Below, piece after piece: positions 9,838 to 29,195 of a stretch of 64,000 bases of DNA. The stretch covers positions 186,001-250,000 of the forward strand of contig CASEVY010000007.1 of the NCBI GenBank assembly GCA_949291515.1, written 5' to 3'. Both the position numbers and the translations under genes were made by a program. The notes under the pieces were generated by a model that worked only from the letters and a program-made list of their open reading frames with translations, was not told where the DNA came from and did no database searches. Within the stretch, counting starts at the first letter, position 1. Every line of letters starts with the position of its first letter. Origin of the DNA: an uncultured bacterium (GTDB taxonomy: Bacteria > Elusimicrobiota > Elusimicrobia > Elusimicrobiales > Elusimicrobiaceae).

Positions 9838-11011
9838 TAAAAAGAGCCTAACGCCTAAGTTGAGATTTCCCGAATTTACCTCTGACTGGATAGTTACAGA
9901 GTTAAGGAATCTATTGGATTATGAACGCCCTGAAAATTATATTGTTAGCAGTGAACAATACCAACAGAATGGTGTCCCTGTACTAACTGCAAATAAAAGT
10001 TTTGTGCTTGGATATACTAATGAACAAGATAATATTTATACAGAATTTCCAGTAATAATTTTTGATGATTTTACAACTGAAAAAAAATATGTCGACTTTG
10101 CCTTTAAAGTTAAATCTTCAGCTATTAAGATTTTAAAACCTAAAGGAGAGAACAATCTTAAATTTATTTTTGAATTAATAAATACCATTAAATTTGAAGC
10201 AAAAGAACATAAAAGATATTATATTTCAACATATCAAAATTTTTTGGTTTTGATTCCCAAGACTCTTCTGGAACAACAAAAAATAGCAGATTGTTTAGCT
10301 TCGTTGGATGAGTTAATTAGCGCGGAAAATAAAAAATTAGATGCTCTAAAAAAACATAAGCAAGCCCTTATGCAAAACCTATTCCCAGCCCGGGGTAAAA
10401 CCATGCCCTCCTGGCGCTTTGCCCAATTTAAAAATGATAACTCGTGGAGAATGACGGGAATTGGAGAAGTAGGAACGATTGTTACTGGTAAAACTCCTTC
10501 GACTACAAATGCCTCATTATGGAATGGAAGTATCCAATTTGTAACGCCAACTGACATCAAGGAAAACAAGTATCAATACAATACTCAAAGGTCTGTGGTA
10601 AAAACTTCCAAAATGAGAATTTTACCAAAAAACACAATAATGTTTACATGTATTGCCTCTATCGGTAAGATGGCCCTATCTGTACATCCTTGTATTACAA
10701 ACCAACAAATTAATTCTATTATCCCGTATTCTTATTATGAGAGCGAGTTCCTTTATTATTCATTATTACAAAGAACCCCTTTGATAAAAGCTAGTTTGGA
10801 AACCACAACGGTTCCTATTATTAACAAAACAGATTTTTCAAAATTGCATATCTGGATAACTGATAACAAACAAGAACAAGAGAAAATAGCCGAGTGCCTC
10901 TCCACTGCGGATCAGCTTATCCAGGTTCAGACTCATAAACTAGAAACCTTAAAAATGCACAAAAAAGCCCTTATGCAAGGCCTGTTCCCTACATTGGAGG
11001 ATATTAAATAA
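9821..11011 (+). CDS. hsdS: Type I restriction specificity subunit
   Basis: A 396-residue protein with two target-recognition domains (about 15-165 and 200-350). Each is followed by a related helical spacer: EQQKIADCLASLDELI ... KHKQALMQNLFP, and EQEKIAECLSTADQLI ... MHKKALMQGLFP. The subunit directs both methylation and cleavage to a bipartite site. ATG 9821 and 9827 are both possible starts within the hsdR overlap. Its stop overlaps the start of the ATPase gene by one base. The two recognition domains differ strongly, so the target should be asymmetric. Confidence 0.95.
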   Translation: MPMNHNKKSLTPKLRFPEFTSDWIVTELRNLLDYERPENYIVSSEQYQQNGVPVLTANKSFVLGYTNEQDNIYTEFPVIIFDDFTTEKKYVDFAFKVKSSAIKILKPKGENNLKFIFELINTIKFEAKEHKRYYISTYQNFLVLIPKTLLEQQKIADCLASLDELISAENKKLDALKKHKQALMQNLFPARGKTMPSWRFAQFKNDNSWRMTGIGEVGTIVTGKTPSTTNASLWNGSIQFVTPTDIKENKYQYNTQRSVVKTSKMRILPKNTIMFTCIASIGKMALSVHPCITNQQINSIIPYSYYESEFLYYSLLQRTPLIKASLETTTVPIINKTDFSKLHIWITDNKQEQEKIAECLSTADQLIQVQTHKLETLKMHKKALMQGLFPTLEDIK

Positions 11012-12345
11012 TGAGTGTTAATATACCCCGAAAACTTGCTACGCAAACATATAAAAAATGGATGAATAAATTAGTCAGCTTAGGCGTGCAAATCAAAGAG
11101 CCCTCCAGAGTGAAGGAATATAAAGCTTTGTTTAGCGCAAATTATAAAAAAGCACGTGGAGAGCAAGACTATCACTTACAACATGGGCTCAATCAAGAAA
11201 CCAAGCGGAAATTAGATTATCTCTTTAGATGTTTGGAGAAAAAAGAAGTATTTAATAGTATAGAGGATATTGCCCACTATTTGCGGCTATATTTAGAAGA
11301 TTCTAAATTTATTGTTTTGTTCGCTTACAATGGAACTGGTAAAACACGCTTGTCTGGAGCGTTTAAAAAGATCGGTCAGGTGTTAAATGAAAGCACTGGT
11401 GAAAAATCAGCCGATACTTTGTATTATAATGCATTTACAGAGGACCTGTTTACTTGGGATAATGACCTGCCACACGACACTACCCGCTCCTTAAAAATGA
11501 ATACGGCCTCTCGCTTTATTGCTGGGTTAAATGCAATGGCGATAGAAGAAAAAGTAACCCCTTTCTTACATCGATATGCTGATTTTAATTTTACAGTTCA
11601 ACATGGGGAGATTAAATTTCATAGAGATGTAATGATTGATGGCAACTTGAAAAGAGTGGATAATATTAAAATATCCCGCGGGGAAGAGCGGATTTTTATT
11701 TGGAGTTGTTTTTTGGCAATTATACAAATGGCTATTGACCAGGATGCTGGATATGACTGGGTTAAATACATCTATATAGATGACCCAATTTCTTCACTAG
11801 ATGACAATAATGTGATTGCCGTAGCTACAGATTTGGCCGAGTTATTAAAACAAAGCTCAAAAAAAGTTGTTGTTTCCACTCACCACCCATTATTTTTTAA
11901 TATATTGTGTAATACAATCAAGAAGTCGGTTCAGCTGTTTTTACATAAGACACCTCAAACAGAACGATATCTCTTAAAAGGCACAGCTAAAACCCCTTTT
12001 TTTCATCATGTGGCCTTGCTAAAAGAAATGAAAGACATAGCCGATTCTGGCACGCCCTATACATATCATTTTAATATTCTTAGAAATATTTTAGAGAAAA
12101 CAGCCTCTTTTTTGGGGTATGAAAATTTTTCAAGCTGTGTTAAGAAAATTTTTCCAGAGGACGAAGCTGTTTATAGTAGAGTTATCAACCTTTTAAGCCA
12201 TGGAAATTACTCGATTTTTGAGCCTCAAGAAATGGTTGAAGATAACAAAAAATATTTTAGAGAAATAGTAGAAGGCTTATTAACACAATACCCTTTTAAC
12301 CCAAAACTATTTGAACCAGAAGCTTCACAAGGAGACGCGCAATGA
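11011..12345 (+). CDS. PrrC/RloC-like ATPase, candidate anticodon nuclease
   Basis: 444 residues between hsdS and hsdM, overlapping both. An ABC-type ATPase: Walker A FAYNGTGKT (104-112), signature-like KISRGEER (220-227), Walker B IYIDDPISSLDD (254-265) and a switch histidine in STHHP (289-293). The C-terminal part has R358 and E362 (LRNILE) and H397 (LLSHGN). In phage-exclusion protein PrrC the tRNA-cleaving residues are Arg320, Glu324 and His356, with the same Arg-x3-Glu spacing and a similar distance to His. PrrC is encoded inside a type I operon and is held inactive by it until a phage inhibits restriction. The ATPase family is clear; the nuclease role is inferred. Confidence 0.8.
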   Translation: MSVNIPRKLATQTYKKWMNKLVSLGVQIKEPSRVKEYKALFSANYKKARGEQDYHLQHGLNQETKRKLDYLFRCLEKKEVFNSIEDIAHYLRLYLEDSKFIVLFAYNGTGKTRLSGAFKKIGQVLNESTGEKSADTLYYNAFTEDLFTWDNDLPHDTTRSLKMNTASRFIAGLNAMAIEEKVTPFLHRYADFNFTVQHGEIKFHRDVMIDGNLKRVDNIKISRGEERIFIWSCFLAIIQMAIDQDAGYDWVKYIYIDDPISSLDDNNVIAVATDLAELLKQSSKKVVVSTHHPLFFNILCNTIKKSVQLFLHKTPQTERYLLKGTAKTPFFHHVALLKEMKDIADSGTPYTYHFNILRNILEKTASFLGYENFSSCVKKIFPEDEAVYSRVINLLSHGNYSIFEPQEMVEDNKKYFREIVEGLLTQYPFNPKLFEPEASQGDAQ

Positions 12346-14132
12346 CCGAAAATCAACAAAAACAATTAGGTGCCACTTTATGGGCCATAGCCGATAAATT
12401 ACGCGGGGCAATGAGCGCAGATGATTTTAGAGACTATATGTTATCTTTCCTCTTTTTACGGTATCTTTCTGATAATTATGAAGATGCAGTAAAAAAAGAA
12501 CTGGGGCCAGATTATGCCCAGTGTGAGCAGGAAATACAGGCCAATAGCCAAGGGTTAGATGCCTATATTACGGGCTTAAAGGAGCGTATTGAAACCTACA
12601 GCAAGACCCTTTCCCCCGCTAAATTGGGCTTAAATGACAATGAAGCCACAGACGAAGCCCTCACCAAGGCCAGAAGTATTTTTATAGAAAATAACAATAA
12701 AATGCTCTATAGCCGCAATGTAATTGCGTTGGCGGTGTGGTATATCCATAATTTGGATCAAGTGGAAACGCTGGAAAAGCAAATGCGCCGTAAAATCCAC
12801 TATGTAATAAAACCCGCTTATTTATGGAGTAATATTTACGAACTAGCCCGCACCCAGAATGAACAATTGCTTAAAACCTTACAAAGCGGATTTAAATATA
12901 TTGAAAATGAATCTTTTGAAAGCAGTTTCCGGGGGTTGTTTTCGGAAATTAATTTGGATTCAGACAAACTTGGTAAAAATTATAGCGCCCGTAATGCCCT
13001 GTTGTGTTCTATCATAACAGAAATTGCAGAAGGCTTGTCCAGCTTTCCCAATGATACGGACATTTTAGGGGATGCGTATGAGTATTTAATCAGCAAGTTT
13101 GCGGCAGGATCTGGCAAAAAAGCGGGAGAATTTTATACCCCGCAACAGGTATCCACTATCCTTTCCCGTATTGTTGCGCTAGATAGCCAAGACCCTAGCA
13201 CAGGTAAAAAGAGTCATTTACGAAATGTATTGGACTTTGCTTGCGGGTCCGGCTCGTTGTTAATCAATGTACGCAAGCAATTTGGGCCCAATGCTATTGG
13301 GCAAATATACGGGCAGGAGAAAAATATCACCACTTACAACTTGGCCCGTATGAATATGTTGCTTCATGGGGTAAAAGATTCTGAATTCCAAATTTATCAT
13401 GGGGATTCTTTGCTAAATGATTGGAGTTTGCTAAACGAAATGAACCCCGCTAAAAAGATGCAGTTTGAGGCAGTGGTGGCAAACCCTCCTTTTAGTTACC
13501 GCTGGGAACCGAAAGAAGATATGGCGGAAGATTTTAGATTTAAAAACTATGGTCTTGCTCCTAAATCTGCCGCGGATTTTGCATTTTTATTGCATGGATT
13601 TCATTTTTTAAGTGATGATGGTACCATGGCTATTATTTTGCCCCATGGTGTATTATTCCGTGGGGGAGGCGAAGAAAGGATTAGAACAAAACTTATCAAA
13701 GACAATAACATAGACGCTATTATTGGCCTGCCGGAAAATTTATTTTTCTCCACTGGTATTCCGGTGTGTATTGTGGTGCTTAAAAAGTGTAAAAAATATG
13801 ACGATGTATTAATTATTAATGCCAGTGAATACTTTGAAAAGGGCAAGCGCCAAAATAGCCTTTTACCTGAACATATTGACAAGATTGTAGATGCTTATCA
13901 ATACCGTAAAGAGGACGATAAAAAATTTTCCCGCCGGGTTTCTGTTAAAGAAATAGAGGAAAACGGGTATAACTTAAATATTTCGCGCTATGTGAGCACT
14001 GCCCCGGAAGAAGAAATTATTGATATTCAAGAAGTATGGCAAGAACTTGAAAAAATTGACAAAGATATCAATAAAGCCAAAACAAAACATAATGAATTCT
14101 TAAAGGAATTAGGGCTAAAGCAACTCCCGTAA
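12342..14132 (+). CDS. hsdM: Type I DNA adenine methyltransferase subunit
   Basis: A 596-residue modification subunit. The N-terminal helical HsdM_N domain (about 8-170, with an insertion near 55-110) is followed by the N6-methylase core, with the S-adenosylmethionine motif DFACGSGSLL (298-307) and catalytic NPPF (381-384). YTPQQV at 265-270 and the downstream AIILPHGVLFRGG are typical of the family. It starts by ATGA overlap with the preceding gene, so hsdR-hsdS-ATPase-hsdM form one transcript. It is somewhat longer than the commonest HsdM proteins but intact. Confidence 0.96.
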   Translation: MTENQQKQLGATLWAIADKLRGAMSADDFRDYMLSFLFLRYLSDNYEDAVKKELGPDYAQCEQEIQANSQGLDAYITGLKERIETYSKTLSPAKLGLNDNEATDEALTKARSIFIENNNKMLYSRNVIALAVWYIHNLDQVETLEKQMRRKIHYVIKPAYLWSNIYELARTQNEQLLKTLQSGFKYIENESFESSFRGLFSEINLDSDKLGKNYSARNALLCSIITEIAEGLSSFPNDTDILGDAYEYLISKFAAGSGKKAGEFYTPQQVSTILSRIVALDSQDPSTGKKSHLRNVLDFACGSGSLLINVRKQFGPNAIGQIYGQEKNITTYNLARMNMLLHGVKDSEFQIYHGDSLLNDWSLLNEMNPAKKMQFEAVVANPPFSYRWEPKEDMAEDFRFKNYGLAPKSAADFAFLLHGFHFLSDDGTMAIILPHGVLFRGGGEERIRTKLIKDNNIDAIIGLPENLFFSTGIPVCIVVLKKCKKYDDVLIINASEYFEKGKRQNSLLPEHIDKIVDAYQYRKEDDKKFSRRVSVKEIEENGYNLNISRYVSTAPEEEIIDIQEVWQELEKIDKDINKAKTKHNEFLKELGLKQLP

Positions 14133-14332: not shown

Positions 14333-16213
14333 TCAAGATATTTTTTCTATTTTCCATCCGGCTTTCTCTATTTCTTTTTCGTGGCCTCGAATATATTCCT
14401 CGTTACATGCAAAGCATAATAAATCAGTAGGACGGCTCATGGCTACATATAACATTTTCATAGCTTCAGCTTCACGTTCTTTTGGTTGCTTTATTTCTTG
14501 CCCTTTTAAAATATTGAGGATTTTCTGTGACTCGGTGGTGTGGTATTGCGTTTCCATTACCAGAGTGGCTGTATGTGTTTCTCCTTTAACGCTATGTATT
14601 GTGCCAATTTCTATATTTATTCCATCTAAAGAAAAAATATTTTTTTGCAAAGGAGAGAGCACTTGACTTGATATGGAGACGGTAGTATTGCTCCTAAAGT
14701 TTAAAGTAGATTCGGAATATTCAAAATGAAATATTTTTTCTAAAGTTGATAAAATCTTATCAAAATCAGATATTGTAATTAAAGATTTTGCAAAAGCCTT
14801 TTGGCACAAAGAATATATCTGTTTTCTCAATAAAAAATTTTCAGGTTTTTCTTTTACTGCTTTCCAAAAAGAAAGATATGAATAATAAGTATTTGTTTGA
14901 GCGTTAGTAATATTTTCCAAACGAAGTATTTCTAAACAAATCTGTGTAATAATTTTAAAAATAGAATTGAAATCCTTAGTTTTTGCTGATTTTTGACTAA
15001 TTAGTTCTATTGCTTCGCTTATAGAATCAATATGATTATGTTCTATCTTAATTTCTTTGCTAAAAGTGGGATAGTAATCCGATAAAGTAAGGCGGTTTTC
15101 CTTTTTTTCTGCTACCCAGGCAATTGCTTTAAATATTGCTTTTTTATTTTGTAAATTGTGTTGTTTTATTTTTTGTACAAAGCATGGTAAAACTTTTTTG
15201 ATTGCAGATGAGGTGTATATAAACAAATACGGAGGAATATCAGATTGTCGTATAGATACAATACTATGATCTATGTCTTTATATAATGAGAACCGTTCCA
15301 CTATTGGAGAAATTTGCGATGAAAGCCTCAGCGTTTTGTGTAAAATTAAAGGGGTGCCTCTGAATTCCCATATTTTATTGCTTTGCACTTTATTAAAAAT
15401 ACTCTGATTAATATCCCCAATTCTTTGATATACTACTGTCGGATGATTAAATAATTTTTCCAATAGTTCTAACTGAGTTTGATTCATATCTTGCATTTCA
15501 TCAACAAAGATATATTTGAATCTTAAGCGTATAATATCTAGTATTTTAGGGTATTTTTCAATATATTCTTGAGCTAATAGGTAAGCGTCAGCATAAGACA
15601 AAAAACCTTTTTTGTATAGGTCTTTTTTCATTTTTAAAATAGCTTGATAAACTTTTCCTTCATGATTTTTTAATAAAAAATTAGTTTTATCATAATGAAT
15701 TAATTCGTCATGAAGGATACCGGTATTAAATAATAGATCGTCTTTGAAAGAATTTTTGTTAGATCTATGATACAGATATAGTTGTAATTCTCGCGGAGGT
15801 TTTGTTATTTTTCGAACAATTTCACTAGCTATATATAAAGGTCTATGTTGATATGTTTGAATATAAAAGGGTATAGCTAAAAATTGGTCTACAAAAGATT
15901 GTATAGTCCCAATGAAATTGGGAGATTTAAATATAAAATTGCATTTATTATCTAGTTTTGAGTGCAAAAGCTTAATTGCGGTGTTTGTGTGGGATAGGAC
16001 TAAAATGCCACGATTTTGTTCTAGAGGCAGGCGCTTCTCTAGTAGTAACAATTTTGCTAAAAGGGCTGTTGTTTTACCGCTGCCTGGAACAGCTTGGCAG
16101 TCAATGGTATCCAAATTTTTAATAAAAGACTTTCTTTCCTCATCAAAACTGCAGTTTGAAGGGAGTAATAAAGGTATAATTTTATCTATCTCCTGGTCAG
16201 AAATCGGTAGCAT
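14333..16213 (-). CDS. gajB: Gabija GajB, UvrD-like helicase
   Basis: A superfamily 1 helicase of 626 residues from ATG 16213. A longer TTG start at 16261 would overlap gajA by 65 bp and is less likely. Motifs: Walker A AVPGSGKTTALLAK near residue 41, GTIQSF (Ia-like), YIFVDEMQDMNQTQLELL (motif II), GDINQSI (motif III), IGTIHSVKGETHTATLVM (motif V) and LYVAMSRPTDLL (motif VI). All are intact. Directly after an OLD-type nuclease this is the Gabija pair, in which GajB senses DNA ends and activates GajA. Start overlaps the gajA stop by 17 bp. Confidence 0.88.
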   Translation of the reverse strand: MLPISDQEIDKIIPLLLPSNCSFDEERKSFIKNLDTIDCQAVPGSGKTTALLAKLLLLEKRLPLEQNRGILVLSHTNTAIKLLHSKLDNKCNFIFKSPNFIGTIQSFVDQFLAIPFYIQTYQHRPLYIASEIVRKITKPPRELQLYLYHRSNKNSFKDDLLFNTGILHDELIHYDKTNFLLKNHEGKVYQAILKMKKDLYKKGFLSYADAYLLAQEYIEKYPKILDIIRLRFKYIFVDEMQDMNQTQLELLEKLFNHPTVVYQRIGDINQSIFNKVQSNKIWEFRGTPLILHKTLRLSSQISPIVERFSLYKDIDHSIVSIRQSDIPPYLFIYTSSAIKKVLPCFVQKIKQHNLQNKKAIFKAIAWVAEKKENRLTLSDYYPTFSKEIKIEHNHIDSISEAIELISQKSAKTKDFNSIFKIITQICLEILRLENITNAQTNTYYSYLSFWKAVKEKPENFLLRKQIYSLCQKAFAKSLITISDFDKILSTLEKIFHFEYSESTLNFRSNTTVSISSQVLSPLQKNIFSLDGINIEIGTIHSVKGETHTATLVMETQYHTTESQKILNILKGQEIKQPKEREAEAMKMLYVAMSRPTDLLCFACNEEYIRGHEKEIEKAGWKIEKIS

Positions 16214-18032
16214 ATCTAATTGCTTCAAATAAGTATTGGGTATATTGGTTTCCAGTATCAATAGTATCGGCGGATTCTATTTTGTTTGCCAAATCATAAG
16301 CCAGTTGCGTTTTGGAAACTTTATTCTTAAAGAGAGTTTGAATCAAAATGCAAGCTTTATCATTAGGATTTTGCTTAATTTTTTCAGTTAGTTCTTTGTA
16401 TGCCTGGTTTGAGAGGAAGTTTCGGGAAATCTCTAAAATGAAAGGGAAAATACTTTCGTTTTTTGCCAAACAATACTCCAAGGTCCACACCGGGGAAACA
16501 AATGTTTGTATTCGTTCTGCATTAAATGCGTATCCTTTTTCTTTTATTTTTTGAGAGATATCGTAGTCCTTTATAGTTTCTTGGTTTTTTGCATCTTTTT
16601 TGAATGCATATTCATCCGGTTTCACATCTAAGTCTGTTACGACAGATATCGGAATATTAATTGAGGGCTGTTCGTTATCTTTTCTTTGAAAAATTTTTAC
16701 ATAGCGTAAGAAAGCCACTCCTCCTACATTTATTATAGAAATACCTTTTTGCGTTAAATCGATATCAATTTTTTTAGCTAATACAGGAAGCAAAATTTGT
16801 TCCGCCCAACCTTCTACCAGTATGAGTCCATGAGCAAAAAAGAGATTAGCTTTTGTTACATCAAGGAAGCATTCTAAGAAGCGGTAATCTTCTTGTTGGA
16901 GATTTGTAAATTCTGGAGCTAGAGAAAAAGCTCTCTCTCCATCAAATAGAAAAATATTTTCTAACAAGACTTTGGATGCAATGTTCGGACTATGTGTAGA
17001 AATAATAAGTTGCAAATCAGTTTCTTTGGAACAGAGATTCTGTAAATGGGAAATAATTCTCATCTGTGCTTGAGGATGTATATGCGCTTCTATTTCCTCA
17101 ATTAAGCCTATTTTTAGGCCTACAAAATCTTTTCTTATGAGGTTCAAAAGTTCTGTTGCAATAAATAATATATTATGTGTTCCAAGTCCCGCCTTTTCGT
17201 CTTCAAAAGCTAGTCTTAAGGTTTCAAGAATGCTTTTGATAGAAGGTGTATTTACTTCAAAAGTAGCTTGCCGAGGGGTGCCAAAAAAATCATTCAGAAA
17301 AGTATTTAAAGTCTTAAATATCTCGTAACCATCAGAATTCCGAAGACCTTTACATAAACAGGCATCTCCGTCATCAACAGGGCATTTCTCTTCTTGATAG
17401 GAACTATCGAAATATTGTTTGATTAAACAATTTAAACATATGGAGGATTTTATCAAAGGATGACTGTCTTCTGAAATCTCGGTGAACTCTTTACGCCCTT
17501 TGAGAATTTGTGATAAACGAGAGTTTCTTCTCGGGACCAGTTCATTTGTTGCATCTCGCAAAGGTTTTAAATATGTGGTTCTAAGAAGTTCTCGTACTTC
17601 GGCGGGTAAAATAGTACCCTCTTTATCATTTCCTGCTCGGATGTCGGGTGATATTATTCGTTCTTTCAGGCTTGCTTGAAGAAATATTTTTAGAAAAGGG
17701 GTTTTTGTCTGTTCGTCCCAAGATAGCCACTCCAGGAAGCAACTTGCTTCTTCATCCCTTAAATCTTTGAAAATACATTCAATTCTTAATGTTTTTGCTC
17801 CCTGGAAAAAATCTTCTTCTTTTAGGGATATCCATTCTCCGCTATGTGTTTTTAGTAGCAATTTAATAGCATCAATAGCGGAACTTTTACCAGAGTCATT
17901 TTCTCCAACGAAAATATTTAAACCTGGTTTTAATTTGATGGAGAAGTGAGGCTTGTCCAAATCTAATGACGTTGAGCTTTCTAAACTCCCAAATTTTCTA
18001 AAATTCCATAGATTTAAAGTTTCTAAATACAT
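16197..18032 (-). CDS. gajA: Gabija GajA, OLD-family ATPase/TOPRIM nuclease
   Basis: 611 residues. The N-terminal ABC-type ATPase has Walker A FVGENDSGKSS (41-51) and a C-terminal ATPase half with IEEIEAHIHPQAQ (about 311-323) and the switch ISTHSPN. The TOPRIM nuclease has E407 and E411 (ILVEGWAEQ) and D467/D469 (VVTDLDV). GajA is a DNA-nicking enzyme whose activity is relieved when phage replication depletes nucleotides. Residues 199-227 contain five cysteines (CLNC, KCP, ACLC) that may bind zinc, an addition I do not associate with the family. The start lacks a strong ribosome-binding site. Confidence 0.87.
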   Translation of the reverse strand: MYLETLNLWNFRKFGSLESSTSLDLDKPHFSIKLKPGLNIFVGENDSGKSSAIDAIKLLLKTHSGEWISLKEEDFFQGAKTLRIECIFKDLRDEEASCFLEWLSWDEQTKTPFLKIFLQASLKERIISPDIRAGNDKEGTILPAEVRELLRTTYLKPLRDATNELVPRRNSRLSQILKGRKEFTEISEDSHPLIKSSICLNCLIKQYFDSSYQEEKCPVDDGDACLCKGLRNSDGYEIFKTLNTFLNDFFGTPRQATFEVNTPSIKSILETLRLAFEDEKAGLGTHNILFIATELLNLIRKDFVGLKIGLIEEIEAHIHPQAQMRIISHLQNLCSKETDLQLIISTHSPNIASKVLLENIFLFDGERAFSLAPEFTNLQQEDYRFLECFLDVTKANLFFAHGLILVEGWAEQILLPVLAKKIDIDLTQKGISIINVGGVAFLRYVKIFQRKDNEQPSINIPISVVTDLDVKPDEYAFKKDAKNQETIKDYDISQKIKEKGYAFNAERIQTFVSPVWTLEYCLAKNESIFPFILEISRNFLSNQAYKELTEKIKQNPNDKACILIQTLFKNKVSKTQLAYDLANKIESADTIDTGNQYTQYLFEAIRYATDF

Positions 18033-18115: not shown

Positions 18116-19318
18116 TTATAAAAACCGAAAATTTCTTAGGAGGAGGTCGGTTTCTTCTGAGGCTTGTCTGAGATTTATTGTAAGTATACTTAAAGTAATG
18201 GCATTTTCTGCCAAAAATATATTCTGACAACAATTTTGTTTAAAAGTCGGATAACATAAAATAATGTTGCGGCGGTTAAAAAATCGATTGTAGGCCAGCA
18301 TTTGATAAATATCAGCCTCAGATGGTTTATTATCGGGTAAGTCTAAAATTTTATATTTGGTATCAATGATGGTGTCATTTCGGAACAGGATATCAGGCCG
18401 TATGCTGTAACTGGTGTTGGCATAGTCGCCAATACTATCAATGATGGTTCGGGATTTTTGGGTTTGCACTTGCCCTGGGAAAGCTTTTTCCAAAGCGGCA
18501 GCCACAAACTCTTCAAACAGCTTATTCATATCAAATAAAATGGCTAAATTGGTAAAAGTTTTATTATGCAGGCTAATCGTGCTGTGTTGTAAGAATAAAA
18601 GGGCCAAATCCAAAACGTCTTTGAAAATTAATTGGTTCCGATTGAGCAAAATCTTTTTGGCTTGCGCATAGGAAATAGCCCTCAATTCGACATCTTCATA
18701 AATAGCTAAAATTTTATTTAAGCGGGCTCTAGTGGCAGGTACAGCCGTCAGAAGACACAAAGCCTGAGCTACAAACTTAAAAGTTTGGTTAAGCAAATTG
18801 TCAGAAGTAAATTCATCAAACTGGCAATATACGCGGGCTAAATTGCCCATATTCACCAGCTGGTTTCTGGCAAATAAGATACGTCCGCGAACGGCAGGGA
18901 GGTTCTCTTCTTTCGTTTCATAGTGATGGGGAATGTGCCGCTGCAGTGCATTTAATAATATATTGGCATAGTGAGCAATTAAGATTTCTAGAAAAGGCTG
19001 TTTCGTTTTGCTGATTTCTGCACTGTTTATCGTATGAATTTCTAAATTTTGAGTGTAGCGGAGCATAAACATCAGATTTTCCAAACACGAGGAGTCATTC
19101 TCTCCAATAATTTTGGGGATAATGTTTAATTGAAAATCAGCAAAACGAATAATGCCAACGTGGGCCTCGGTTTTAATGCCGTCCAACTGAAAATCCAAAG
19201 CGGTTGTTAAGCCCTTATCCTTCAAAAATTTTTTGAAAGATTTGGCCTGCTCTTGAATGAGGCCTAGTTCCGCATAGCTAATCTTCTTCCATTCCTGGGT
19301 TGTTATCTGTGTTATCAT
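18116..19318 (-). CDS. mcrC: McrC, nuclease subunit of McrBC
   Basis: A 400-residue McrC-family protein. It has the conserved central VRGRILFARNQ (143-153) and CQFDEFTSDNLLNQ (165-178), and a C-terminal PD-(D/E)xK nuclease with D309 (IRPDILF) and D319/K321 (IIDTKYK). It assembles with the McrB GTPase ring and cuts DNA containing modified cytosine. The start overlaps the mcrB 3' end by 41 bp. An 83-bp gap separates it from gajA, so all four minus-strand defence genes may be co-transcribed. Confidence 0.92.
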   Translation of the reverse strand: MITQITTQEWKKISYAELGLIQEQAKSFKKFLKDKGLTTALDFQLDGIKTEAHVGIIRFADFQLNIIPKIIGENDSSCLENLMFMLRYTQNLEIHTINSAEISKTKQPFLEILIAHYANILLNALQRHIPHHYETKEENLPAVRGRILFARNQLVNMGNLARVYCQFDEFTSDNLLNQTFKFVAQALCLLTAVPATRARLNKILAIYEDVELRAISYAQAKKILLNRNQLIFKDVLDLALLFLQHSTISLHNKTFTNLAILFDMNKLFEEFVAAALEKAFPGQVQTQKSRTIIDSIGDYANTSYSIRPDILFRNDTIIDTKYKILDLPDNKPSEADIYQMLAYNRFFNRRNIILCYPTFKQNCCQNIFLAENAITLSILTINLRQASEETDLLLRNFRFL

Positions 19319-21218
19319 GCAATATTTTTTCTAAAGCTTTGATGAATTCGTCATCCTTTAACTGATCTTTTTGCTCAAATCCCGGAATGATTTTTTTTAG
19401 CTTTTCCGGATTTCCATAGAAATATTCTTGTAATAAGGGCAGAATACACTGATAAAATTTTTGTTGTAATTCTGCTTTATTTGTCACTTTCATAAAGTAG
19501 CTGTGGCCGAGTTGATGGTCCCGGTCTAACTCAGCTGTTATCTTTTCATTTAGTCGTTTAAACCAGCCCGGCAAGTCAAATCCTTCTATGGATTGTAATA
19601 AGCTTTCGTCCGGCATCATTTCTTCAAACACAAACCGGCGGCGCAGCGCGATATCCACCAGTGCGATGGATTTATCCGCCGTATTCATAGTGCCAATGAT
19701 ATACAGATTATTGGGTACGCTAAACTCCTCTTGCAGATAGAGCAACGGAGCAGACATGGTAATCTCATTTTTTTCCCGTTTATCATTCTCTATAAGTGTA
19801 ATGAGTTCCCCGAAAATCTTGGAAATATTCCCGCGGTTGATTTCATCAATGATTAGCACATAGTTGTTGCCGGTATCTTTCCGGGCTTTGTCTGCTATTT
19901 GTTTGAAGGGCCCCTCGTATAGTTTGTAGGCAATCTTTTCTCCGTTTAACATGGGACGGATTCCTACCATAAAATCCTCGTAGGAATAGTTTTGGTGGAA
20001 AGTAATAAATTTAATTTTCCCTTCATTTTTCAATTCGTCAAAGCGGGCTTTGGCCAGGCTATAAACGGGGCTCACTTTCCCATCAATAATTTCTACTGCT
20101 TTGGTTACGGTGTGATACGTCTTTCCCGTCCCAGGCGGCCCGTAAAGAATTTGGTTGAGAGGGTATTTAGGCTTTGAAGAATGATGTGCCGACGTATCAT
20201 CACGGTCCGATAATAACTTTTTTACATAATCAATTAGTTCAGGTTCTCTGACTTTAGAGATAGTTGCGTTGTGTCCATTGAAAAGATAGTCTTCTATTTT
20301 TTGTTTTGTCCAAGCCACTTGGAAAGACCACCAGTTTATTCTCTGGGTAACTTTTCCAATAGCTGTATTCGCAGGTGACAATAAAATAAATACATCTCCC
20401 ACGGCCACTCGGCTAAGTGTGTTGCGATGTTTATCCATACCATTTTTCCCGTATCCATTTTCCCAGCAGTTTTGAGCAATGAAACGGCCACTCTGATCTT
20501 GCCCCTCCCAATTGGAGCGTACTGCCCAGAAAGAAGGACCCTGTATGTTGGCAGAACCTTCTAAAGGGGCTTTTTTATCTTCCCAAGCTTGGAAAGAGAG
20601 CTGGTATGGAAATTGCGAAGGATATTTTTGTTTAGCGATTTGTTGGACTTGTTGAAAACACGAAAAAGAATTTTCTCTTTTTATGCCCAAAAAGGAGCAA
20701 GTTTTTGCATCCATTGGATAATAAATCGTTGGGAAACAAATAAATAAAAATTGGCTTATTTTTGTAATACCTATAAATGGCAATTTGACGAGAGTTTCAA
20801 ATTCACTTTCTTCTATTTTCTGGGCATTTAATCGTTTCTGTGCAAAAGCCCACAGTAAAGAAATATCATCTTTCCCCCGTTCATAAGCATAGCGAACAAA
20901 CCATGTAGCGAAATTGCTAAAACAGGGAATTCCCATAAAATCAGCAGGAAGCGGCGCTTGCAAGTTCATAATTTCTTTAGCATGTTTGCATAGTTCAATT
21001 CGATTATTTGGAGCAATATTGCGATTAAAACAGGCAATGAAAGTGAGTGGGTCCATTTCTTGAAAGGAAATTTTGTTGTTTTTTGGATTCTCATCTTGCT
21101 GGCCTGGGAATATCTCATTAAATACTTCTGCCAAGGATTGGGCATTATATTCAGCACAAATTTTTGTCAGCATTTCATTAAAAAATGGAAGCCAAGTAAA
21201 TGAAGTTTGTTCGGACAT
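19278..21218 (-). CDS. mcrB: McrB-type AAA+ GTPase with an N-terminal DNA-reading region
   Basis: 646 residues. The AAA+ motor has Walker A LYGPPGTGKTYHT (358-370), Walker B LIIDEINRGNISKIFGE (455-471), the McrB GTP signature MNTADKS (511-517) and the arginine-rich IALRRRFVFEE. The first 350 residues hold a helical region and then FWAVRSNWEG ... NTLSRVAVGDVFILLS at about 230-290, which resembles PUA/EVE-like base-reading domains. That would choose modified DNA; the domain call is by eye. Ribosome-binding site AAGGAGAG. A structured leader lies upstream. Confidence 0.9.
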   Translation of the reverse strand: MSEQTSFTWLPFFNEMLTKICAEYNAQSLAEVFNEIFPGQQDENPKNNKISFQEMDPLTFIACFNRNIAPNNRIELCKHAKEIMNLQAPLPADFMGIPCFSNFATWFVRYAYERGKDDISLLWAFAQKRLNAQKIEESEFETLVKLPFIGITKISQFLFICFPTIYYPMDAKTCSFLGIKRENSFSCFQQVQQIAKQKYPSQFPYQLSFQAWEDKKAPLEGSANIQGPSFWAVRSNWEGQDQSGRFIAQNCWENGYGKNGMDKHRNTLSRVAVGDVFILLSPANTAIGKVTQRINWWSFQVAWTKQKIEDYLFNGHNATISKVREPELIDYVKKLLSDRDDTSAHHSSKPKYPLNQILYGPPGTGKTYHTVTKAVEIIDGKVSPVYSLAKARFDELKNEGKIKFITFHQNYSYEDFMVGIRPMLNGEKIAYKLYEGPFKQIADKARKDTGNNYVLIIDEINRGNISKIFGELITLIENDKREKNEITMSAPLLYLQEEFSVPNNLYIIGTMNTADKSIALVDIALRRRFVFEEMMPDESLLQSIEGFDLPGWFKRLNEKITAELDRDHQLGHSYFMKVTNKAELQQKFYQCILPLLQEYFYGNPEKLKKIIPGFEQKDQLKDDEFIKALEKILHDNTDNNPGMEED

Positions 21219-21305
21219 ATATTCTCTCCTTTTTGTTTATTGTATATATCAAATACGACAACATGTTGTCACTAAGAACAGCCGGAAAATCAAATGGGCG
21301 GGCAA

Positions 21306-21500
21306 TAAAAACGGCTGTTATTTCTAATGGCAACCAATACGCATTAGAAACACAGCCGTAGTTACTTACCAAATTGGCAAATAACATTCGCCGTAAATTG
21401 GCGGGCTCATGACTTCCCTCCGCATTACGGTTAATTGGCCTTGTCAGTATTGGTTGCCTTTTGCCCTAAGGCAAAAGCGTGCCGTTTCTTCGGCACTAAG
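21306..21500 (-). ncRNA. Candidate structured RNA or attenuator upstream of mcrB
   Basis: Transcribed leftward toward mcrB. It has stems GTGCCG/CGGCAC (21479-21496) and CTTTTGCC/GGCAAAAG (21458-21477). It ends in a long interrupted hairpin, ACGGCTGT plus TTTCTAATG (21311-21329) against CATTAGAAA plus ACAGCCGT (21342-21359), followed on the minus strand by five Ts: a strong terminator 87 bp before mcrB. The terminator loop is the exact complement of a 12-base block upstream (21447-21458, GTATTGGTTGCC; partner 21329-21340), so pairing between the two could compete with termination or form a pseudoknot. No known class recognised. Confidence 0.5.
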
Positions 21501-21764
21501 CCAGGTTTAAATCGTTAATTTCTTTTTTCTCTTTTGATCCTTTTTAAAAGCTAATTTTATTGTAGCAATTTGTACCAGAAATATAATAAAAATACGATTT
21601 TGGCAAACTTTCCTAAAAATATTTATGCAATTTTTTGTCTTGCCTGTGTCACTTTAAACTTCCGTCGAGAAAATAATCAAATCCTTAATTCTTAAATCTA
21701 CTTATTATAATAAATAATTAGCACTCATTTGACTTGGTTGCTAATTTTAAGTAATATATCTATC
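21501..21764. other. AT-rich gap between the two candidate RNAs
   Basis: No gene or strong repeat. It is very AT-rich and probably holds divergent promoters for the leftward mcrB leader and the rightward RNA and methyltransferase unit. I cannot point to one promoter with confidence. Confidence 0.3.
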
Positions 21765-21960
21765 AAATTAAGCGGGAAAACCGCTTCTCAGGGTCTGTTA
21801 ATGGCGAAGTTGGAGGAGTCAGTTTCTTGGACCCTATTAGAAACCATAGCACAGGGGCAGAATACTGTGCTAGGCTAACCCCAGCCTGAACGGGGACTCC
21901 ATCCTGCAGTGCAAACCAAGGCCAACTGGTATAAAAACCTGAAGCGTTTCGCTTCAATTT
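21765..21960 (+). ncRNA. Candidate structured RNA upstream of the ParB-methyltransferase gene
   Basis: A run of well-formed stems fills about 190 bp: AAGCGG/CCGCTT (21770/21781), GGGTC/GACCC (21791/21830), GTTTCT/AGAAAC (21822/21839), AGCACAG/CTGTGCT (21848/21865), GGCT/AGCC (21873/21883), a long-range GGAGTC/GACTCC (21815/21895), and a final TGAAGCG/CGCTTCA hairpin (21940/21950) followed by ATTT. The GGGTC pairing interlocks with GTTTCT/AGAAAC, suggesting a pseudoknot. No protein reading is plausible. The ribosome-binding site of the next gene follows at once, so it is either a leader or a separate RNA. Confidence 0.5.
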
Positions 21961-21981: not shown

Positions 21982-23316
21982 ATGAGGCAAAAATTAAACT
22001 GCGACCTTACGGTCGTCTATATCTCCTTGGACACGCTGACGGAGTATCCAAATAATCCCCGCCAGCATGACGCCAAGCAGATTACTAAAATCCAGCATTC
22101 TATTGAAGAATTTGGGTTTGTAAATCCTATTTTGGTAGATGAGCATAATGAGATTATTGCTGGCCACGCTCGGCTGGAAGCGGCCCGTCTTGCCCACTTG
22201 CAGCAAGTGCCCGTGATTCGTTTAGGACATTTATCTGTGGCCCAGAAAAAGGCATATCGTATTGCCGATAATAAACTGGCCGAGTTGGGAACATGGAGCA
22301 TAGAGAATTTGCAGTTGGAGTTCCAAGAACTGGAAAAGTCTGCGTTGGATTTTTCGCTGAATATAACCGGCTTTGATATGGGAGATATTGATCTGATTTT
22401 AGAGGGAAAAGAAACAAAAGCCGATCCCAAGGTTAATAATATCCCGTTTATTCCAGATGATGAGATCGTCAGCAAGGAGGGGGATATATGGCTTTTAGGA
22501 GAACACCGCATTATTTGCGGGAATTCTTTGCAAAAGGACACTTTAAGCCAACTGATGGAAGATAAAAAAGCCGATATGGTGTTTACGGATCCACCGTATA
22601 ACGTAAAAATAAACGGGCATGTTTGCGGAGCGGGGAACGTGCAGCATAAAGAGTTTAAATTCGCTTCCGGCGAAATGACTAGCGAAGAATTTACTCAATT
22701 TTTGAAAACGTCCTTTGAACTATTGTGTGCATTCAGCAAAGACGGTTCTCTGCATTATATCTGTATGGATTGGCGGCATATCAAAGAGATTATGACGGCG
22801 GCTGAGGTGTATGACCAGTTTAAAAATCTTTGTGTTTGGCGCAAGGATAATGCGGGGATGGGCTCATTCTATCGTTCCCAGCACGAACTGATTTTTATGT
22901 TCAAACACGGGAAGGAACCTCATATCAATAATGTGGAACTGGGGATACATGGCCGGTATCGTACTAACGTATGGAATTATGCGGGAGTGAATACGCCTAG
23001 CGCGGAAAATGCTGAAAAGCGGGCAATGCATCCGACGGTTAAGCCAGTGGAGCTAATTAAAGACGCTATTTTAGATGCGTCCAATCGGGGCGGTGTTGTA
23101 TTGGATGCTTTTTTAGGTTCCGGCAGTACGCTAATAGCGGCGGAAAAGGCCGGCCGTATATGTTATGGCGTAGAACTGGAACCGAAATATGTGGATACGG
23201 CTATCCGACGGTATGAAAGTTTGGGAGGAAAACATTTCGCTGTACATATGGGCAGTGGCAAGACTTATCAAGAACTATTGACCGCTAAACGGGCGGAAGG
23301 AGGCAAACATGACTAA
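21982..23316 (+). CDS. ParB-domain DNA methyltransferase (phage type)
   Basis: 444 residues. An N-terminal ParB/sulfiredoxin-like domain (about 15-110: LTEYPNNPRQHD, GHARLEAA, AYRIADNKLAE) is fused to a beta-class DNA methyltransferase with catalytic FTDPPYN (about 200) and the SAM motif DAFLGSGSTLIAAE near residue 375. HPTVKP precedes it as usual. This fusion is common in prophages next to terminase genes, where it methylates phage DNA against host restriction. Ribosome-binding site TTAGGAG. Its end overlaps the DUF5681 gene by 8 bp. Confidence 0.92.
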   Translation: MRQKLNCDLTVVYISLDTLTEYPNNPRQHDAKQITKIQHSIEEFGFVNPILVDEHNEIIAGHARLEAARLAHLQQVPVIRLGHLSVAQKKAYRIADNKLAELGTWSIENLQLEFQELEKSALDFSLNITGFDMGDIDLILEGKETKADPKVNNIPFIPDDEIVSKEGDIWLLGEHRIICGNSLQKDTLSQLMEDKKADMVFTDPPYNVKINGHVCGAGNVQHKEFKFASGEMTSEEFTQFLKTSFELLCAFSKDGSLHYICMDWRHIKEIMTAAEVYDQFKNLCVWRKDNAGMGSFYRSQHELIFMFKHGKEPHINNVELGIHGRYRTNVWNYAGVNTPSAENAEKRAMHPTVKPVELIKDAILDASNRGGVVLDAFLGSGSTLIAAEKAGRICYGVELEPKYVDTAIRRYESLGGKHFAVHMGSGKTYQELLTAKRAEGGKHD

Positions 23317-23692
23317 TGAATACGAAGTGGGATACGGGAAACCGCCCAAGAAACATCAGTTTAAGCCGGGCTTTAGCGGTAATAAAAAGGGCCGCCCAAA
23401 AGGTCAGCCCAATTTGCACACCATTGTAGGCAAAGTATTAAAAGAAAAAATTAGCATTTTGAAAAATGGCGAAGTGCTAAAGATGACAATGCTGGAGGGA
23501 ATTATCCGCAAACTTTTTGTGGAGGGGTTGCAAGGCAAAGAGGGGGCGATTAAACGTATCCTGGAGTTATGCGAACGGCTGGAACACAGGCAGGCGGAGC
23601 AGGCCGTCCAGCGGGAGGTCCTTCAGCAAGATGATAAAGCCTTGCTCGACGCTGTTTTAAAAGAGTTTTTAGGGGAAGATGCGCGTGGATGA
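23309..23692 (+). CDS. DUF5681-domain phage protein
   Basis: 127 residues. The N-terminus VGYGKPPKKHQFKPGFSGNK plus the following KGRPKGQPN is the DUF5681 signature. Such proteins lie just before large terminase genes and are thought to be small-terminase or packaging partners; that role is from context, not from an assay. The C-terminal half is helical and charged. AGGAGG lies upstream. It overlaps both the methyltransferase and the terminase gene. Confidence 0.8.
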   Translation: MTNEYEVGYGKPPKKHQFKPGFSGNKKGRPKGQPNLHTIVGKVLKEKISILKNGEVLKMTMLEGIIRKLFVEGLQGKEGAIKRILELCERLEHRQAEQAVQREVLQQDDKALLDAVLKEFLGEDARG

Positions 23693-25057
23693 AGAGATAA
23701 TTCTTTGCCGAAAACAGCTGGACGCGCTTCTGCGGCAGGATTTTAAAACATTCGTTTGTAAGGTGTTCTTGGAAATCAGCCCGGGAGCGGTTTACCAGGA
23801 TAATTGGCACATCAGTCTTATTTGCGCCGAGTTGGAGGCTATGCTCCGCGGCGAAAATAACCGATTAATTATCAATATCCCGCCGCGCTATATGAAATCC
23901 ATTATATGTTCTGTGGCGTGGCCGGCCTATGTGTTGGGGCATTGTCCGCAGGAGGCCGTAGTTTGTGTGAGCTACGCCGATGAATTATCCAAAAAACTGG
24001 CGGCGGGCGGTATTCCACGACGGTAGGCGGCACCTTAACCGGGCGCGGCGGCAATTGGCTGGTGATAGATGACCCCATTAAACCCGCCGACGCAAATTCG
24101 GACTTAATACGCAATAAAGTGAACGAGTGGTACGGAAATACGCTTTACAGCCGGTTAAATGACAAGAAAAACGGGAAGATTATTCTTATTATGCAGCGCA
24201 CACACGAACAGGATTTGACCGGTTATCTGCTGGAAAGCCAAGCCGTGTTTAAGCATACGGCTATTCCGTTGCTGGCCCGGCAGGCCGAGCATTGGGTTTG
24301 GACGCGGCGGATGGGGAATATAACGCGCCAGTTTCACTATGACCGTCTGCCTGGTGAGCCGTTACACCCGGCCAGGGAAGGATTGGCGGAAATAGAGCGT
24401 ATCAAAACCTCTATGGGACGTATGGCGTTTGCCTGCCAGTGCCAGCAGGATCCGCTGGCGCCGGGCGGAAATATTGTCAAATGGGAGTGGTTTAAATGTT
24501 ACCGCTGGGACGCATTGCAACAGAGCGTTTACAGCGGGGAGTTTTCGGTTCTGCAAATGATGTTTAGCTGGGATTTGGCCATCAAACGCGGCAAGGAAAA
24601 TGATTACAGCGTGTGCATTTGTGCTTTGCGTACCGATAAAGGCTGGTACATTTTGGATGTAAAACGCTGGAAATTGGAACTGCCCGAACTGGTTAAAACC
24701 GGCTATGCTTATATGGAGGAAAAACGCGCGCTGTTCAACCGGCTTAGATATGGCTTATCTTTCAAGGTATTAGTGGAAGAAGCCGGCTGCGGCATTGGTT
24801 TTTTGCAGGAAATTCAGCGCAAATACTCCCGCTCAGTATTGCCTGTTAAACCTATAGACGATAAGGAAACCCGCCTTAAAAATGTAACGCCTGCTTTGGA
24901 AGCGGGGCGTTGTTTCCTGCCGGAAGGGGAAACCGCGTGGATGGCTGACTTTAAGCACGAGGTGCTGGGTTTTCCGCATACCAAGCACGATGACCAAGTG
25001 GACGCATTATCCCAATTATTAGAGTATTGGAAACCCAAAACCTTTGATTTTATTTAG
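23679..25057 (+). pseudogene. Phage large terminase with internal deletion and frameshift
   Basis: The first part (to about 24003) has the ATPase start: NIPPRYMKSIICSVAWPAYV as Walker A region, then VSYADELSKKLA. The second part, in another frame from about 24004, resumes with TTVGGTLTGRGGN and the Walker B WLVIDDPIKP. The nuclease domain follows: FSWDLAIKRGKENDYS, LVEEAGCGIGFLQEI and HDDQVDALSQLL. By comparison with known terminases roughly 45-50 codons are missing at 24003-24010. The nuclease half is otherwise clean. DNA packaging by this protein is therefore not expected. Confidence 0.85.
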
Positions 25058-25167
25058 TTGACTTGCCGGGGAGGAGTAGTGCGTGTTGTATATATTGAGA
25101 AAAAATCTTGACTTCGCTCCCAATAGTAAGCGTATATGTAGGTACGTTAAAACTATAGGGAGGAAGT

Positions 25168-25671
25168 ATGACCAAACATAACACCAAAAAAGCTTCTCAA
25201 AAAGCCACTGCCTTAAAGAAAAAAGCAAACACGCCATCGTCTAAGGACAAGAAAAATTCCGGTCCGCACGGTTTGGGAGCAGAAACAAAAGCCGGTCAAA
25301 CTGTTTCGCTCATAAAAAATCTTTCAGATACACAGCCCGCCCTTGCTCCCACCCCAGCGCAGAAACCGGCAATCCCTTCCACGAATGATCTGCGAGAAAT
25401 TGCCAATACTGTCAATCCTTTGGCTCAACTCATGCGTAAAAATAAGTACCGGGCCGAAAAGCGCGCCACAGAGAACAAAAAATCCCTGCGGGATGTCCGC
25501 CTGCCGCTGGCAGGGGCCGTATTGGAAAAGAAATACAAAGGGCGGGAAATAGCCGTCAAGGTATTGGAAATCGGATTTGAGTATAACGGCAAATACTATA
25601 AAAGCCTTTCCGCGGTCGCCTGTGCTATTACCGGACAGCATATTAGCGGGTATCATTTCTTCGGATTATGA
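25168..25671 (+). CDS. DUF2924-domain protein
   Basis: 167 residues. A Lys/Ala-rich N-terminus (TKHNTKKASQKATALKKKA) is followed by the DUF2924 block at about 110-167 (RLPLAGAVLEKKYKGREI, YNGKYYKSLSAVACAITG, GYHFFGL). DUF2924 genes regularly precede phage-type serine recombinases. The function is unknown, possibly DNA binding. AGGGAGGAAG is a strong ribosome-binding site. Its stop overlaps the recombinase start (ATGA), so the two are translationally coupled. Confidence 0.85.
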   Translation: MTKHNTKKASQKATALKKKANTPSSKDKKNSGPHGLGAETKAGQTVSLIKNLSDTQPALAPTPAQKPAIPSTNDLREIANTVNPLAQLMRKNKYRAEKRATENKKSLRDVRLPLAGAVLEKKYKGREIAVKVLEIGFEYNGKYYKSLSAVACAITGQHISGYHFFGL

Positions 25672-27101
25672 GCGAAATTGTCCGCCCGTTATATTGCGCC
25701 GTATATACGCGCAAATCCACCAGTGAGGGGCTGGAGCAGGACTTTAACTCCTTGGATGCCCAGCGTGAGGCCTGCATGGCCTATATCGCCAGCCAACGCG
25801 GGGAGGGGTGGCTCCCCCTTAATACCCACTATGATGACGGCGGCTTTACCGGGGCCAATACGGACAGGCCCGGTCTCCAGCAGTTAATCCGGGATATCAA
25901 ACAAGGATTAGTGAACTGTGTGGTAGTGTATAAGGTGGACCGCCTGTCCCGCTCCCTCCTGGATTTTTCCCAGCTTCTGGAGTTTTTTGATAAACATTCC
26001 GTATCGTTTGTGTCCGTTACGCAAAACTTCAATACTAAAACCTCTATGGGCCGTTTGACGCTTAACATATTGCTGTCTTTTGCCCAGTTTGAACGGGAAA
26101 TCATCGGGGAGCGCACGCGGGACAAAATGGCGGCCTCCCGCATGAAAGGCAAATTTGTGGGCGGGCTCATCCCGTTTGGATATCGGTTGGATAGAGAACG
26201 GCATTTGCTGGTGCCAAATCCACCGTATGACGAGCAGGTACGGTTTATTTTTGAAAGCGTTTTGCGGGAGGAAAATGTTTCCAAAGTATTGGATGTTTTG
26301 AATGCAAAAAGTATCGGCTTCCCGGAACGCAAACTGCGCCATGGAGGAGTATGGCAGGCCCGGCCAATATCCCGCGCCCATTTATACCGCATTATCCACA
26401 ACCCCACCTATATTGGCCAAGTGCTTTATAAAGGGAAAATATACGAAGGCGAACACGAAGGCATTATCTCGCGGGAAACATATGATAAGGTACAGGAGTT
26501 ATTGCGTTCCCGCCGCATCAACCACGGTTTTACCCGCAAACGGATACCCGGGCTTTTACGGGGCCTCCTCTATTGTAAGGAGTGCGGCTCGGATATGGTG
26601 CCGGTGTATGCTAAGAAAAATGGAATAAAACATTTTTATTATATATGCCACCGCTGCCAAAAGGAGGGGTATGCCTCCTGCCCTACCCGAACGGTACGCC
26701 AGCCGGAGTTTAATGAGGCGGTTTTGAAACAGCTGGCAGAACGCGGGTTAATCAATAGGGCGGAACTGGAACAGCAGAAATTAGAGCAACAAACGGAAAC
26801 GCTGGCCCAAGTCGTACGGCGGATTTCTTACGCATACCAAGGGGAAAATATAGAGGTTTTGCTCCCCAACGGGGTAAGTTTTGCATTCCACGCGGCGGTA
26901 AAACCCAATTATGTGCGGCGTACCAAACGGGTAAACGCCAATCCCAAAGCACCCAAGATAGACAAAAGGACGTATTATAAAGCGCTTGCTTTGCAGATAC
27001 GGGAATATATGCGCGTGAATAACCTTTCCCAGCGGGAATGTGCCTCGGCCCTTGGCATGAGCCCCGCCCGCGTGAGCCAATTGCTCAGATCTAATAGTTA
27101 A
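25668..27101 (+). CDS. Serine recombinase with C-terminal helix-turn-helix
   Basis: 477 residues. The resolvase domain has the catalytic serine in YTRKSTSEGLEQDFNSLDAQ (about Ser17) and conserved VVYKVDRLSRSLLDF, FAQFEREIIGERTRDK. The recombinase domain (about 165-270) and a zinc ribbon (CKECGSD ... CHRCQ) follow. The end, NNLSQRECASALGMSPARVSQL (about 448-469), is a helix-turn-helix, an arrangement different from the first recombinase at 4602. With DUF2924 it forms a two-gene unit. Convergent overlap with the NERD gene is 4 bp. Confidence 0.9.
   Translation: MSEIVRPLYCAVYTRKSTSEGLEQDFNSLDAQREACMAYIASQRGEGWLPLNTHYDDGGFTGANTDRPGLQQLIRDIKQGLVNCVVVYKVDRLSRSLLDFSQLLEFFDKHSVSFVSVTQNFNTKTSMGRLTLNILLSFAQFEREIIGERTRDKMAASRMKGKFVGGLIPFGYRLDRERHLLVPNPPYDEQVRFIFESVLREENVSKVLDVLNAKSIGFPERKLRHGGVWQARPISRAHLYRIIHNPTYIGQVLYKGKIYEGEHEGIISRETYDKVQELLRSRRINHGFTRKRIPGLLRGLLYCKECGSDMVPVYAKKNGIKHFYYICHRCQKEGYASCPTRTVRQPEFNEAVLKQLAERGLINRAELEQQKLEQQTETLAQVVRRISYAYQGENIEVLLPNGVSFAFHAAVKPNYVRRTKRVNANPKAPKIDKRTYYKALALQIREYMRVNNLSQRECASALGMSPARVSQLLRSNS

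Positions 27102-29117: not shown

Positions 29118-29195
<78 letters not shown>

Follow-up and report, generated by a model that had tools for sequence, protein, structure and literature searches.

The window analysed here, a stretch of 64,000 nt from an uncultured member of the Elusimicrobiaceae (contig CASEVY010000007.1), carries the genes mcrB, mcrC, gajA and gajB on its minus strand. Upstream of mcrB lies a structured leader RNA of about 205 nt (minus strand, about 21307-21510) which consists, from 5' to 3', of the helices P1, P2 and P3, a 12-nt segment VL, the 3' strand of P1 (A'), the hairpins P4 and P5, and a terminator with a segment VR in its loop (Table 1). Just past gajB, at 11011-14132, a type I methylase gene overlaps that of a PrrC-like anticodon-nuclease protein (PADLOC E 2.8e-129), which places the locus in a wider defence island. 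On the other side, the leader is flanked by a prophage-like module at 21982-27101 (a ParB-N6/N4 methyltransferase, a DUF5681 protein, a terminase large subunit and a large serine recombinase), with a tRNA-His gene nearby at 29118-29194.

Table 1. Features of the leader RNA and the genes that follow it (positions in the window)
Feature	Position	Strand	Basis
mcrB, first gene after the leader (SD ~21230-21224)	19278..21218	minus	
mcrC	18116..19318	minus	
gajA (Gabija)	16197..18032	minus	
gajB (Gabija)	14333..16261	minus	
Promoter-like extended -10 (TGCTACAAT), upstream of leader	21559..21567	minus	sequence; candidate
Segment A, 5' strand of P1 (TGGCTT; CTGTTTTTGG in canonical copies)	21498..21503	minus	fold and canonical copies
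Hairpin P2 (GTGCCG...CGGCAC)	21479..21496	minus	fold
Hairpin P3 (CTTTTGCC...GGCAAAAG)	21458..21477	minus	fold
VL, 5' half of private code (GGCAACCAATAC)	21447..21458	minus	complementarity to VR, covariation
Segment A', 3' strand of P1 and 5' strand of antiterminator (GACAAGGCCA; canonical CCAAAAACAGCCG)	21436..21445	minus	constrained folding
Hairpin P4, apical loop with palindrome TCATGA (21412-21407)	21391..21430	minus	fold, covariation
Hairpin P5	21361..21385	minus	fold, covariation
Segment B, terminator 5' arm (ACGGCTGTGTTTCTAATGC)	21341..21359	minus	pattern search, folding
VR, 3' half of private code, in terminator loop (GTATTGGTTGCC)	21329..21340	minus	complementarity to VL, covariation
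Segment B', terminator 3' arm and T5 run	21307..21328	minus	sequence, fold

The intrinsic terminator hairpin (21359-21307, ACGGCTGT...ACAGCCGTTTTT) ends in a T5 run (21311-21307); the mcrB ATG, at 21218, follows 88 nt later. VR is perfectly complementary to VL over 12 nt at a distance of about 106 nt; by simple arithmetic (4^-12), inverted repeats of 12 nt are expected about 0.001 times in 200 nt. An earlier sequence-only reading had described both the long T5-tailed hairpin before mcrB and the exact 12-base match between its loop and an upstream block, and both observations hold. Its interval, 21306-21500, was correctly located, but the RNA begins slightly further upstream, with P1 at about 21503 and the promoter-like element at about 21567. 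The window leader (221 nt) folds at -81.6 kcal/mol, compared with -57.8 +/- 4.7 for shuffled sequences (z = -5.1). The core 11-mer of VL and VR occurs at only two sites in the whole 1.5-Mb genome, VL and VR themselves, and no trans-encoded partner was found in the window's own genome. Extended -10-like elements with an 8/9 match or better precede 35 of 112 copies of the leader, at scattered distances, and the promoter assignment is correspondingly tentative. In many 5' ends (e.g., L111, L113, L125) an SD-like AAGGAG soon follows the -10-like element, and then a variable small hairpin; judged by eye, there is no start codon behind the AAGGAG elements.

The window RNA belongs to a class of leaders with at least 119 distinct copies, found in the Elusimicrobiaceae and, probably, the Endomicrobiaceae. 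A nucleotide search across 90 genomes of the window's family returned full-length homologues at 81-100% identity, plus weaker ones. The terminator-stem pattern ACGGCTGT-N(20-45)-ACAGCCGTTTTT has matches in 50 of these 90 genomes, at up to 15 places per genome, and the reversed control pattern has none. Common to the pattern matches is the whole leader, in the order CTGTTTTTGG, P2, P3, VL, CCAAAAACAG(C/T)CG, P4, P5, ACGGCTGT, VR loop, ACAGCCGTTTTT. A covariance model of the leader detects the RNA in 92 of 341 Elusimicrobiota genomes, with 7 candidates scored per genome. Eighty of the 92 belong to two genera of the Elusimicrobiaceae; the other 12 represent a second family, probably Endomicrobiaceae, where a Ruminimicrobiellum contig (L289) has a copy. 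Copy numbers, taken from a separate, fuller search, reach about 45 strong copies in the 1.5-Mb genome G024 and exceed 20 each in G312 and G318; the window's genome has 3.

The earlier reading recognised no known class, and this agrees with a comparison against Rfam 15, in which searches at the gathering cut-off and at E values up to 10 assigned no family to the window or canonical copies. The T-box riboswitch model likewise gave no match to either. As for a retron, no reverse transcriptase occurs among the window neighbours or the families listed for first downstream genes. The literature searched on Elusimicrobia leaders, pilins and RNA motifs held nothing relevant, and Weinberg 2010 mentions neither Elusimicrobia nor pilins. 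Among the matches listed in genome contigs, terminator matches outside the Elusimicrobiota are without P1 and P1'. A phage or plasmid origin was considered and rejected: blastn searches of phage and plasmid sequences found no genuine match, and pattern scans of IMG/VR with the terminator and with the A'-to-B region returned only chance matches lacking P1, code or terminator. A scan of IMG/VR with the window code alone hit 81 stretches, as many as are expected by chance for a 15-mer. One copy, L016 (G062), is truncated, its 5' half (P1-P3 and VL) being kept and its terminator half replaced.

Comparison with related loci shows how the leader relates to the genes after it. Between the window (20600-21900) and G077 (L195), the leader with its intergenic and upstream DNA is 97-100% identical, the leader itself 99-100%, the ParB-methyltransferase 96% and gajAB 92.5%, and DNA identity falls to 61-70% from the onset of the mcrB coding region. 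This pattern would be explained by replacement of the restriction module directly after the leader. In G053 the leader is more diverged, with gajAB, mcrC and part of mcrB 93.6% identical. In G002, G014 and G065 a leader of this kind is followed by a GmrSD-like gene in place of mcrB. The leader thus stays beside a restriction module that is exchanged. The ParB-methyltransferase adjoins the window-type leader in all relatives seen.

Across the class, a same-strand start codon follows the terminator at a median distance of 44 nt. A same-strand ORF of 100 codons preceded by an SD lies within 130 nt in 94 of 113 copies, versus 19 of 113 in a mirrored control region that is nearly twice as wide. Because very few of the 119 copies have a McrB or GmrSD gene behind them, the idea of an mcrB-specific leader was rejected. 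Among the first downstream proteins, 59 of 111 carry the N-terminal motif of type IV pilins. G024 has 114 pilin matches, about 8% of its genes if some 1,400 are assumed, so the proportion behind leaders (53%) represents strong enrichment. More than 100 type IV pilin-like genes occur in each of G020, G024 and G014, genomes of about 1.5 Mb. Other downstream products are glycosyltransferases (families 8 and 2), outer-membrane beta-barrels, sulfatases and lipoproteins, together with restriction-type proteins (McrB, GmrSD, and EcoRI-, MmeI- and type III-like methylases). The leader-bearing genes would appear to specify anti-phage systems and parts of the cell surface that phages can exploit.

The most variable part of the leader is the helix formed by VL and VR, which we call its private code. 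Over 119 distinct copies the code helix has a median length of 10 bp, and a helix of at least 8 bp was found automatically in 111 of them; the automatic search misplaced P1' in five window-type copies, and in each of these a free search gives 12 bp. G-U pairs make up 32 of 1159 code pairs (2.8%, obtained with a helix finder slightly biased against G-U), compared with 9.3% in P5 helices. When VL and VR are swapped between copies, mostly 4-7 bp can pair. Both halves change on a scaffold that is kept, as in the window (GCAACCAATAC/GTATTGGTTGC), G087 (GGAACTTGATAC/GTATCAAGTTCC) and G055 (GCTTATCAGG/CCTGATAAGC). Compensatory change in this pairing had been suggested as a check when only the window sequence had been read, and a 42-sequence alignment has it on both sides in 11 of 11 code columns. 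Over the whole structure 89.3% of cells are paired, versus 72.1% after shuffling and 38-46% when slid, and all helices covary; about a quarter of the rows in the 42-sequence alignment are one column out of register, which lowers the pairing figure for the code helix. In alignment A1 the window copy is misaligned at P1.

There are 93 distinct codes among 109 copies. Code identity is near the random level while the scaffold is still 80-85% identical, and the code evolves much faster. In G024 all 45 of 45 copies have different codes; their own pairs average 10.1 bp and cross pairs 3.8 bp, against 3.55 bp for random codes of equal composition. Repulsion between codes within a genome beyond chance was not seen, cross pairs of at least 7 bp numbering 47 with 28 expected. 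The codes are private, without sign of active mutual repulsion. Exceptions to self-complementarity are L110 and L182, in which the two halves do not match, and L170, which has one mismatch. In L110 (240-470) and L182 (7840-8053), VL and VR resemble the codes of other copies; these broken codes suggest recombination between two leaders or faulty assembly.

The conserved segments suggest how the RNA might switch. Segment A (CTGTTTTTGG) is a near-duplicate of B (CGGCTGTTATATTTGGG), and A' (CCAAAAACAGCCG) resembles B', and two sets of pairings are possible: A:A' with B:B', giving P1 and the terminator, or A':B with A:B'. In silico, CCAAAAACAG is able to pair either with CTGTTTTTGG, as P1, an anti-antiterminator, or with the terminator 5' arm. 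In the proposed OFF state, A:A' would form P1 around P2 and P3, and B:B' the intrinsic terminator. In the ON state, A':B would be lengthened by the VL:VR code helix and A would be free to take up B', making the terminator impossible. During transcription P1 would form first; as B and then VR leave the polymerase, they would break into P1 by pairing with A' and VL and so build the antiterminator, which B', on emerging, could displace to terminate. VL:VR would be paired only in the ON state, the conserved segments being common to both. Since the code helix forms in a single state, the balance should depend on how strong it is; lying outside all shared segments, the code is also free to vary.

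Constrained folding is consistent with this order of events. When the RNA is cut just after VR, ON is more stable than the P1 state in 105 of 105 copies, by a mean of 9.5 kcal/mol, and at full length OFF is more stable than ON in 99 of 105, by a mean of 6.5 kcal/mol, in energies that take no account of pseudoknots, RNA polymerase pausing or proteins. In the ON state the terminator 5' arm takes up, on average over the 105 copies, 12.3 of the 14 nt of A' (P1'). In the window copy the minimum-energy fold holds the antiterminator for lengths up to 195 nt and the terminator beyond. Covariation says little about the A':B pairing, because A, A', B and B' hardly vary. From anatomy, conservation, compensatory change, position before genes and these computed energies, we infer regulated termination and consider it very probable that the RNA, as 5' leader of the mcrBC-gajAB operon, is a transcription attenuator acting in cis and that it belongs to a multi-copy leader class. 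The sequence-only reading had offered an attenuator of the McrBC-Gabija unit; the attenuator is supported by the compensatory changes, the mutually exclusive terminator and antiterminator, and the nearby start codons, but it is not specific to mcrBC-gajAB, belonging to a genome-wide class that mostly precedes pilin genes. Private codes may keep dozens of leaders that share A, A', B and B' from pairing with each other, and some factor or dimer, perhaps acting through the palindromic P4 loop, may tip the ON/OFF balance.

Several other explanations need to be weighed against this one. VL and VR might instead pair together with the finished terminator, as the sequence-only reading implied, in a long-range kissing or pseudoknot contact that strengthens the OFF state. 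Both halves are free in the OFF fold, VR being contained entirely in the terminator loop and VL in an unpaired junction. Such a pair would, however, require about 10 of some 13 loop nt to adopt an A-form helix, which is sterically hard. Moreover, the code is contiguous with A' and B and so makes one long nested helix with A':B, as it does in 105 of 105 copies, which a mere kissing pair would not need. We therefore give this alternative little credence, and the code is most likely part of the antiterminator. A ligand-binding riboswitch that uses this expression platform, with P1-P3 or P4 as aptamer, is a possibility of some standing, though still an improbable one. A multi-copy leader with a conserved P1 as anti-antiterminator has the layout of many riboswitches; against this, there is no invariant junction core, P2, P3 and the loops vary in length and sequence, nearly all invariant positions lie in the switching strands, and the surface and defence genes downstream have no metabolic theme. 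A riboswitch is compatible with the attenuator explanation and would name its trigger.

That the copies are an independent family of trans-acting small RNAs, placed before genes by chance, is very unlikely. Their own promoter-like sequence and terminator, and their number per genome, would fit such a family, and a separate small RNA had been the other suggestion of the sequence-only reading. It is disfavoured by the close same-strand start codons and by a fivefold excess of same-strand genes over the mirrored control. A plain small RNA would have no use for alternative terminator/antiterminator pairing, and the window code is present at no other site in its genome. A DNA-level element, whether a recombination or inversion site, a cassette boundary or a mobile repeat, might be suspected from the abrupt fall in identity between leader and mcrB relative to G077, from the alternation of McrB and GmrSD-like genes behind one kind of leader, and from VL and VR being perfect inverted repeats. 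These repeats differ between copies, however, so no single recombinase could recognise them. Furthermore, P2-P5 behave, and P4-P5 covary, as RNA helices, and besides pilins no protein family recurs next to most copies. We consider this explanation highly improbable.

The apical loop of P4 has a further property. A 6-nt palindrome (TAATTA, TCATGA, TTGCAA, TTATAA, TTCGAA and CTGCAG among them) is present in 18 of 24 distinct P4 loops, where shuffling predicts 1.7; palindromes of 4 nt or more occur in all 24, where it predicts 9.9. Kissing dimers use palindromic loops, and the P4 palindromes suggest that leaders may dimerise. An extension of the attenuator reading, which we hold to be unlikely, is that terminated leaders dimerise through P4 and that the class comprises dozens of natural, mutually orthogonal switches acting on sister molecules. 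VL would then pair only with a VR of the same code, so each leader would sense only transcripts of its own gene. If true, this could allow gene-by-gene expression, for example bistable or one at a time, of pilins, surface sugars and anti-phage systems.

Taken together, the data best support an undescribed RNA class of gut Elusimicrobiota, placed before dozens of pilus, surface and defence genes. In Rfam 15 and the literature searched, we found no leader RNA class that controls pilins, glycosyltransferases and restriction/Gabija genes together. About 45 copies in a 1.5-Mb genome is above what is usual for one riboswitch class. The class raises a directly testable question, namely why every copy has its own code, and it may provide a handle on how bacteria might silence costly phage-related surface and defence genes until they are needed.

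Known systems share parts of this design. GEMM-I (c-di-GMP-I) riboswitches control pilins in other bacteria and, like the present class, are leader RNAs before pilin genes; the single match to the c-di-GMP-I model scored 14.2 bits against a cut-off of 59, and canonical copies gave none. The Termite-flg and Termite-leu motifs are structured RNAs from termite-gut bacteria (PMC2864571); these have Rfam accessions, whereas the leader matches no Rfam family. Like the attenuators of trp operons and riboswitch platforms, the leader has three to four segments in mutually exclusive pairs and an intrinsic terminator just before the first gene. To this it adds a palindromic P4 loop and a hypervariable code helix, specific to each copy and part of the antiterminator alone. 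It also differs from classical attenuators in its dozens of copies per genome, with no known ligand and no leader peptide noticed. The antisense-controlled attenuators of pT181 and pIP501 similarly derive specificity from variable loop pairing, and many orthogonal attenuators engineered from pT181 can coexist if their loop sequences differ (PMC3753616). In contrast to the pT181 type, the loop here has its partner within its own RNA; no gene for an antisense RNA was seen, and in the window's genome the code is found only at VL and VR. A hypervariable, nearly always self-complementary private code is a natural counterpart of those engineered attenuators, in a natural set of about 45 copies whose codes are all different.
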